Source of the DNA: an uncultured Pelagibacteraceae bacterium
GTDB lineage: Bacteria > Pseudomonadota > Alphaproteobacteria > Pelagibacterales > Pelagibacteraceae
Length of the DNA: 64,000 nt
Direction of reading: 5' to 3'
Assembly: GCA_902619665.1 (NCBI GenBank)
Contig: CACNFB010000001.1
Location: forward strand, 62,001-126,000
Shown here: piece after piece, positions 16,521 to 17,519 of the stretch
Layout of the letters: every line of letters starts with the position of its first letter
How positions within the stretch are numbered: the stretch's first letter is position 1
Program-made: the position numbers and the translations under genes
Notes under the pieces: model-generated
Databases searched by the model: none
The model's input: the letters and a program-made list of their open reading frames with translations, nothing else
What the model was told of the DNA's origin: nothing

Positions 16521-16548
16521 ATTGAAAAATAAAAAATAGTTACCATAT
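16521..16548 (+). promoter_or_regulatory. Sigma-32 (RpoH)-like heat-shock promoter before hsp20
   Basis: ATTGAAA (16521-16527), 14 nt, ACCATAT (16542-16548) compares with the bacterial sigma-32 consensus CTTGAAA / CCCATNT, differing by one base in each element, with spacing in the accepted range. It is placed to start transcription near 16555, about 50 nt before the hsp20 ATG. Inference from consensus and position only. Confidence 0.7.
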
Positions 16549-16556
16549 AATTTTAA

Positions 16557-16600
16557 GTGTCGCCTAATGGGGCACTAAATAACCTTGCTAACAAAGGAGG
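16557..16600 (+). ncRNA. ROSE-like RNA thermometer in the hsp20 leader
   Basis: The Shine-Dalgarno AAAGGAGG (16593-16600) can pair with CCTTGCT (16583-16589): C-G, C-G, U-A, U-G, bulged G16587, C-G, U-A, closing a 5-nt loop AACAA. This is the ROSE arrangement, in which UYGCU with a bulged G masks AGGA of the SD. A second imperfect hairpin (GTG..CC-TAAT-GGGGCAC, 16557-16575) precedes it, as in ROSE leaders. Known ROSE elements control small heat-shock genes in rhizobia and enterobacteria. Confidence 0.72.
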
Positions 16601-16604
16601 AAAA

Positions 16605-17051
16605 ATGACAAGTAAGGATCTATCAATCTTTAATTCATTAAGACCATTTTCCGTTGGTTTTGATGATATGTTTGAGCAATTTGAAAACATGTTAGGAAAT
16701 GGGAGTTTGACAACACAGTCAAATTATCCACCATATAACATTAGGAAAACTGGTAAAGACAGATACTCAATTGAGGTAGCTCTTGCAGGGTTTAACAAAA
16801 AAGATGTCGAAGTAGAATATGAGGATAATCTTTTAACTGTAAGAACTAAGCAAGTTGAAAAATCTGATAATACTGTCGAAAATGGAGAGATTATACATAA
16901 AGGAATATCTCAAAGACAATTTACTAGATCATTTAAAATTGCTGAGGACGTAAAAGTTGGTGAAGCTAATTTAAAAGATGGGCTTTTAACTATTGAATGC
17001 GAAAGAATAGTTCCAGATTTTAAGAAAAAAAAATTAATTCAAATTAAATAA
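16605..17051 (+). CDS. Small heat-shock protein Hsp20 (IbpA-like)
   Basis: ATP-independent chaperone with an alpha-crystallin domain. 148 residues from the ATG at 16605, chosen because the strong SD AAAGGAGG ends 4 nt before it; an upstream in-frame GTG at 16557 lies in the structured leader. N-terminal LRPFSVGFDDMFEQFENML is typical of IbpA; the core includes YPPYNIRKTGKDRYSIEVALAGF and LTVRTKQVE, ending with the GLLTIEC strand. Flanked by a sigma-32-like promoter, ROSE element and a hairpin terminator: a self-contained heat-shock unit. Confidence 0.95.
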   Translation: MTSKDLSIFNSLRPFSVGFDDMFEQFENMLGNGSLTTQSNYPPYNIRKTGKDRYSIEVALAGFNKKDVEVEYEDNLLTVRTKQVEKSDNTVENGEIIHKGISQRQFTRSFKIAEDVKVGEANLKDGLLTIECERIVPDFKKKKLIQIK

Positions 17052-17064
17052 GCTAAACCTTGCT

Positions 17065-17083
17065 TGTGGGGTAAAGCCCCACA
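17065..17083. terminator. GC-rich hairpin between convergent hsp20 and lipoprotein gene
   Basis: TGTGGGG-TAAAG-CCCCACA: 7-bp perfect stem, 5-nt loop, exactly in the 34-nt space between convergent stops. No long U-run follows on either strand, so it may act as a bidirectional transcription stop or as 3'-end protection. Confidence 0.65.
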
Positions 17084-17085
17084 GG

Positions 17086-17397
17086 TTAAAAACATCCTTT
17101 AGAAGAATAACCTACAACAAAATCACTTTCATCAATTTCAAAACTTCTTTGACATTTAATCCCATATTTTTTTGAAATATATATAATTTTTGCCGAACCA
17201 GGTAGTTCTCCATCATTTGGCATTGTTAAATCTGGGTATCCAAATTCTGCGATCAACAAATCTTTTTTTTTGTTTAGAAATTTCATTAAATACTTATCTT
17301 CTTTTTGAATAACTTCGTCAGCTTTATTCTGAACCGTTTTACAAGACGATAAAAAGACAAACAACAAAATCAAAAGTATATTAATTATTTTTTTCAT
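17086..17397 (-). CDS. Small lipoprotein of unknown function
   Basis: 103 residues from the ATG at 17397 (MKKIINILLILLFVFLSSCK), with a classical lipobox LSSC, Cys19 lipidated. After cleavage the mature part is charged, then has LLIAEFGYPDLTMPNDGELP and ends KCQRSFEIDE..VVGYSSKGCF; two cysteines there could form a disulfide. The FGxPD...PG arrangement resembles envelope lipoproteins of the SmpA/BamE-like type but I cannot assign it. An upstream ATG at 17415 would give a less typical signal sequence. Confidence 0.75.
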   Translation of the reverse strand: MKKIINILLILLFVFLSSCKTVQNKADEVIQKEDKYLMKFLNKKKDLLIAEFGYPDLTMPNDGELPGSAKIIYISKKYGIKCQRSFEIDESDFVVGYSSKGCF

Positions 17398-17519
17398 TAG
17401 GTTGAATATTAGCATAGTAGAAATTATTAAAAATAAACTTATAGTTGAATATTGTGAATAAAGAATATTTTATTAAGGAATTATTTTATTAATCTGATAA
17501 TTTTTCATCGGGAGGATTT

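Follow-up and report, generated by a model that had tools for sequence, protein, structure and literature searches.

The leader of hsp20 in SAR11, as found in an uncultured Pelagibacteraceae bacterium, is likely a short ROSE-type RNA thermometer by descent and anatomy, one that consists of two hairpins and has lost the middle hairpin. The element is present and conserved in relatives, its first hairpin covaries and is akin to hairpin I of known ROSE elements, and leaders of this kind precede heat-shock genes in other lineages. Since the Rfam ROSE model does not match the leader, and since the Shine-Dalgarno (SD) stem is reduced to an invariant core within its own family, we infer the thermometer function by homology; melting, translational control and the temperature range of the leader would follow by analogy. 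Few regulators are understood in SAR11, which ranks with the most abundant cell lineages of the ocean. If true, a thermometer that operates in the SAR11 temperature range would provide a directly testable handle on the response of these bacteria to warming.

The hsp20 locus, its promoter and hairpin I

In the window (the whole 64,000-nucleotide stretch analysed here), hsp20 (16605..17051, + strand) encodes a small heat-shock protein of the alpha-crystallin family, 148 aa in length (PF00011 match, E 3e-16). Immediately 5' of it lies a gene for a histone-deacetylase-like amidohydrolase (PF00850; 15589-16512). On the other side, a convergent short ORF (17086-17415, - strand) encodes a 109-aa product that has a lipoprotein-like signal and matches no Pfam family; this ORF ends at the hsp20 3' stem-loop.

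A promoter resembling those of sigma-32 (RpoH), with TTGAAA followed at fixed spacing by CCATAT, is located at 16522..16548 (+ strand). This promoter was matched in 117 of 137 leaders of family f1, with identical spacing in 116, as compared with 1.2/137 for mono-shuffled sequences; CTTGAAA is found in the hsp20 leaders of most relatives. The distance from the promoter end to the ATG is 56 nt in the window, and transcription is expected to start approximately 7 nt past the promoter, at the foot of hairpin I. Given this promoter position, the 5'UTR of hsp20 would be essentially two hairpins. RpoH scores above the curated cut-off in all seven complete relatives (7/7), and a search of the window's own genome, which is 87% complete, returned only an RpoD-length match. 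The initial annotation had proposed post-transcriptional heat control of hsp20 in a lineage where few regulators remain. This proposal has to be narrowed: the fixed-spacing promoter and the presence of rpoH in all complete relatives argue that hsp20 is not under RNA control alone. Sigma-32 and the RNA element probably act jointly, as in Pseudomonas ibpA (PMC3669281).

Hairpin I, the upstream hairpin that the initial annotation had placed in the short leader, was recovered at 16556..16576 (+ strand; AGUGUC[G]CC UAAU GGGGCACU, with a bulged G at 16562). In single-sequence folding it is more stable than shuffled sequences (z -3.9), with none of 200 shuffles reaching its stability. SAR11 relatives share the form N4-GUYGCCUWAUGGGRC-N4, in which the bulged G is retained and the stem covaries: in a 43-sequence alignment, changes on both sides are observed at 6 pairs, and the structure as a whole has a covariation score of 0.309, versus 0.175 for shuffled and at most 0.114 for slid alignments. 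Two other interpretations of this hairpin were ruled out. A non-bulged form (Y-R pair, G.G mismatch) is incompatible with the U-R and Y-G pairing observed in 117/117 sequences and with the outer register, which requires the bulge. A terminator of the upstream gene would not fit either: a U-run is lacking, and the hairpin is downstream of the promoter.

The proposed Shine-Dalgarno hairpin and its conservation

The anti-SD strand CCUUGCU (16583..16589, + strand) contains the ROSE motif UUGCU at 16585-16589 and faces the Shine-Dalgarno sequence AAAGGAGG (16593..16600, + strand), which was identified by sequence reading and by its conservation in relatives. The possible pairing of CCUU[G]CU with AGGAGG (numbering 16583 as 83) is C83-G100, C84-G99, U85-A98, U86.G97, C88-G96 and U89-A95, with G87 (16587) bulged. 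The location and the bulged pairing were thus read correctly in the initial annotation, and conservation of the motif in relatives is far beyond chance.

As a structure in this genome, the SD hairpin is weak. At 37°C the bulged pairing has a predicted energy of -2.4 kcal/mol, versus -2.9 for a plain CCUU/AAGG hairpin; at 15°C the two are about equal. Folded alone, the hairpin does not surpass shuffled sequences (z -0.9 and -1.4), and single-sequence folding was dropped as proof of it because these values are not significant. With 20 nt of coding sequence (CDS) included, the SD of the window is predicted to have an accessibility of 0.74 even at 4°C, and with 21 nt of CDS, ViennaRNA favours pairing of CCUUGCU to codons 3-5 over pairing to the SD. 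In favour of a thermometer, the cost of opening the hsp20 ribosome binding site (RBS) ranks 2 of 66, a ranking based on rough gene starts and confined to the window.

Conservation was assessed in hsp20 leaders from 118 loci of the window's own genus set, 20 of sister family f2, and others from neighbouring genera. UUGCU is present in 118/118 leaders of the Pelagibacter set, separated from the SD by a loop whose length varies, and is unchanged across about 25% divergence of the CDS; its G is G in 114 of 114 leaders and never A. The sister family carries UCGCU in 20/20 leaders, also with variable loops, as do two of the three distinct leaders of genus g172 that were read. U(U/C)GCU is the signature of ROSE elements (PMC3669281). 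The sister-family SD hairpin, UUUAAUC[G]CU-UAAGG-AGGAUUAAA, has the canonical form and is predicted to be closed at a probability of 0.98 at 4°C, falling to about 0.7 at 45°C. Leaders have two hairpins in the window's family and three in the sister family. In the latter (L111-L130), a bulged G before C apparently occurs in all three leader hairpins (UGGCA, UAGCU and UCGCU), as if one bulge had been reused thrice.

The SD core pairs are kept among relatives, but they are weak and, in the window, in competition with the codon pairing; as they are nearly invariant, they are uninformative for covariation. The pairs flanking the core do not covary within the window's own family (P 0.55). Outside this family they do, with 4.5 of 6 pairs versus 3.0 after permutation (0/5000), although the register was picked for each sequence before permuting, which introduces a small bias. 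Covariation in SAR11 hsp20 leaders, which the initial annotation had put forward as a check, is borne out by hairpin I and, within the window's own family, not by the SD flanks.

That a short motif pairs with the SD by chance is scarcely credible. The lack of significance in single-sequence folding would suit this explanation, as would the frequency of TYGCT-N-AGGAG, which occurs 31 times in the genome; however, the full arrangement before a start codon (CTTGCT-N2-12-AGGAG-N3-9-ATG) occurs only once, the motif is invariant where the CDS has diverged, and it recurs before the heat-shock genes of other lineages. Conservation already refutes chance. The initial annotation had named the outcome that would refute the thermometer, namely no covariance-model match together with loss of the SD pairing in relatives; what we found is a motif and pairing core that are kept throughout.

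Relation to ROSE elements in other bacteria

The Rfam search proposed in the initial annotation came back empty: the ROSE model (RF00435) gave no match in the window at E<=10 in either threshold mode, and its gathering cut-off of 45 bits was not reached. Across 190 alphaproteobacteria there were likewise no matches at the cut-off and 8 at E<=0.01, of which those read resemble canonical ROSE. As 0/190 genomes reached the cut-off, we consider the model insensitive here.

RF00435 covers ROSE elements of rhizobia and other alphaproteobacteria. Its consensus, compared as printed against canonical elements from other alphaproteobacteria, opens with cCgGccGCCuuauGGggCcGg and a bulged G, and its 3' hairpin is CCAugUU[G]CUC-uaaG-GAGGAuaUGG. 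SAR11 hairpin I shares the bulge, the GCC-loop-GG core and the loop. As in ROSE elements, the SAR11 leader occupies the 5'UTR of a small heat-shock gene, places U(U/C)GCU, with its predicted bulged G, opposite the SD in the putative 3' hairpin, and has a stable 5' hairpin preceding the SD hairpin. Unlike RF00435, which has three hairpins, it has two in the window's family: the middle hairpin is missing, as is an outer SD stem reaching the start codon, and the leader is AU-rich and does not match the covariance model. Considering the likeness of hairpin I to RF00435 and the canonical form in the sister family, SAR11 proper resembles a ROSE element from which the middle hairpin and outer SD stem have been lost.

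We built a covariance model (R1) from SAR11 leaders and searched it blind in 289 alphaproteobacterial genomes. R1 matches the window at 4e-17 and is effectively single-copy in that genome, weaker matches elsewhere in it being noise where read. Outside Pelagibacterales, 9 of the 12 best matches (E<1e-3) precede hsp20 (6) or rpoH (3), and the remaining 3 are not followed by a gene carrying the motif; matches before dnaK and one more hsp20 rank just below this threshold. As R1 holds no protein information, its link to heat-shock genes counts as independent support. The search indicates that putative short ROSE elements which the present Rfam model misses are widespread in AT-rich alphaproteobacteria, where they stand before rpoH and dnaK in addition to hsp20. 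No ROSE element was seen in SAR11 rpoH leaders.

Short two-hairpin ROSE-like leaders can be read around position 1501 of L230, L232, L233 (rpoH) and L239 (dnaK), all from AT-rich alphaproteobacteria. Around the same position of L229, a stem-loop GGCGGUCGCCUAAUGGGGCCGCC followed by eight U combines the core of ROSE hairpin I with the appearance of a terminator; no UYGCU/SD arrangement comes after it.

Among the closest known counterparts, Pseudomonas ibpA carries short ROSE-like thermometers (Krajewski et al. 2013, PMC3669281), which also have a leader of about 60 nt, two hairpins with U(U/C)GCU opposite the SD in the second, a sigma-32 promoter and a small heat-shock protein gene. In contrast to the SAR11 leader, these are gammaproteobacterial and have G-C pairs flanking the core, and neither frozen codons nor a 3'UTR complement have been reported for them. 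More than 40 ROSE elements were described by Waldminghaus et al. (2005), as cited in a 2014 review (PMC4166951) which states that the ROSE family is always associated with small heat-shock genes. Our literature search found no paper on a thermometer before SAR11 hsp20, nor expression, probing or reporter data for this leader; the element list of Waldminghaus et al. (2005) lay outside that search, and an earlier listing there is possible. The main text of a Pelagibacter RNA survey (PMC2704228) mentions neither hsp20 nor thermometers.

In the mechanism we propose, the two-hairpin element would form essentially the whole 5'UTR (approximately 50 nt) of a sigma-32-driven hsp20. Hairpin I, a stable helix at the 5' end, would have been inherited from the ROSE element of alphaproteobacteria, and the second hairpin would use UUGCU with its bulged G to capture the SD. 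As long as the cell is at growth temperature, the anti-SD strand would block the ribosome; upon warming, the weak core would melt and Hsp20 would be made, on top of sigma-32-induced transcription. Alternatively, the leader may be conserved for mRNA stability or efficient translation without temperature sensing, hairpin I guarding the 5' end and a strong SD driving translation. Hairpin I is indeed stable and located at the predicted 5' end, and such a role has been proposed for hairpin I of Pseudomonas ROSE by Krajewski et al. (PMC3669281). We regard this as improbable: it leaves unexplained both the association with heat-shock genes and the invariant UYGCU opposite the SD, which in other lineages also takes the Y=C form with covarying flanks. 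The assignment of the hsp20 leader to the ROSE type is thus upheld by the motif, the pairing core, the likeness of hairpin I and the heat-shock genes in the model search, with the qualification that the SD pairing is marginal in this genome and competes with codons 3-5.

Frozen codons and a complement in the 3'UTR

The start of the hsp20 CDS is itself unusually conserved. Within codons 2-5 (ACA AGU AAG GAU), CAAGUAAGG (16609..16617, + strand) is complementary to both the UUGCU strand and a 3'UTR motif. Among 32 divergent CDSs (mean identity 75%), codons 2-4, ACA AGT AAG, show almost no synonymous change: Ser3 is AGT in 32/32, versus 11% usage, and Lys4 is AAG in 28/29, versus 20% usage. Codons 3 and 4 are the sole frozen non-preferred case among 69 conserved codons, and Lys near other starts in the window is encoded by AAA over AAG at 55:4. 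The sister family lacks the frozen codons, and genus g172 has different ones.

One explanation is that the leader descends from ROSE but that the Pelagibacter UUGCU strand pairs mainly with codons 3-5 (AGUAAGG), placing the SD and AUG in a loop of about 21 nt, and that this helix regulates hsp20 rather than the SD pairing. When 21 nt of CDS are included, the 7-bp helix has a predicted probability of 0.87-0.98, and the freezing of synonymous sites in codons 2-4 reflects no general bias at starts; with 36 nt of CDS, however, the helix is predicted only in some sequences, and the restricted distribution of the codons also argues against it. Furthermore, A in place of the leader G would pair equally well with the codons, yet it never occurs; the G must therefore be held by something other than codon pairing, and an invariant G fits the ROSE bulge. 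At the matching position of the 3'UTR motif, G and A both occur (66:45). Regulation by the codon helix in place of the SD pairing is thus unlikely, and the ROSE-type SD hairpin remains our preferred reading.

The 3'UTR motif, CCUUGCUUG (17058..17066, + strand), is a 9-nt complement of codons 2-5 with the consensus CCUURCUUG across relatives. It is present in 111/112 genomes with a pairing-competent codon 4 (AAG/AGG) and absent in both genomes (2/2; L014 and L136) with AAA or AGA at codon 4, where the complementarity is broken (Fisher P 5e-4, uncorrected for kinship). Those lineages read that lack the frozen codons also lack the motif. A 3' stem-loop, GCUUGUGGGG-UAAAG-CCCCACAGGU (17062..17086, + strand, by sequence reading), starts inside the motif; its stem varies on both sides in relatives, and as it has no U-run it is not a classical terminator. 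Whole-mRNA folding does not generally predict the helix between the codons and the 3'UTR (mean probability 0-0.4 in 9/10 sequences, and 1.0 in L191) because the 3' stem-loop competes.

This long-range partnership of codons and 3'UTR is the new part of the finding, and would add a new layer to a thermometer. Codons 2-5, being able to pair with either the anti-SD strand or the 3'UTR, probably take part in a switch, and one possibility is that the long-range complementarity serves as a lock deciding whether the anti-SD strand is free. Tentatively, and with more doubt than confidence, we suggest a compound switch composed of a minimal ROSE hairpin and frozen codons 2-5 that pair with either the ROSE strand or CCUURCUUG; the tail of the message, in cis or in trans as a 3'UTR fragment, would determine if the anti-SD strand is available to close off the ribosome site. 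In the meningococcal fHbp thermosensor (PMC4999090), coding sequence near the start likewise joins in RBS control, but there the codons pair with the RBS itself, whereas those of SAR11 hsp20 are complementary to the anti-SD strand and the 3'UTR; no kinship is claimed. Other CCTTRCTTG sites within the window lie in unrelated coding sequence.
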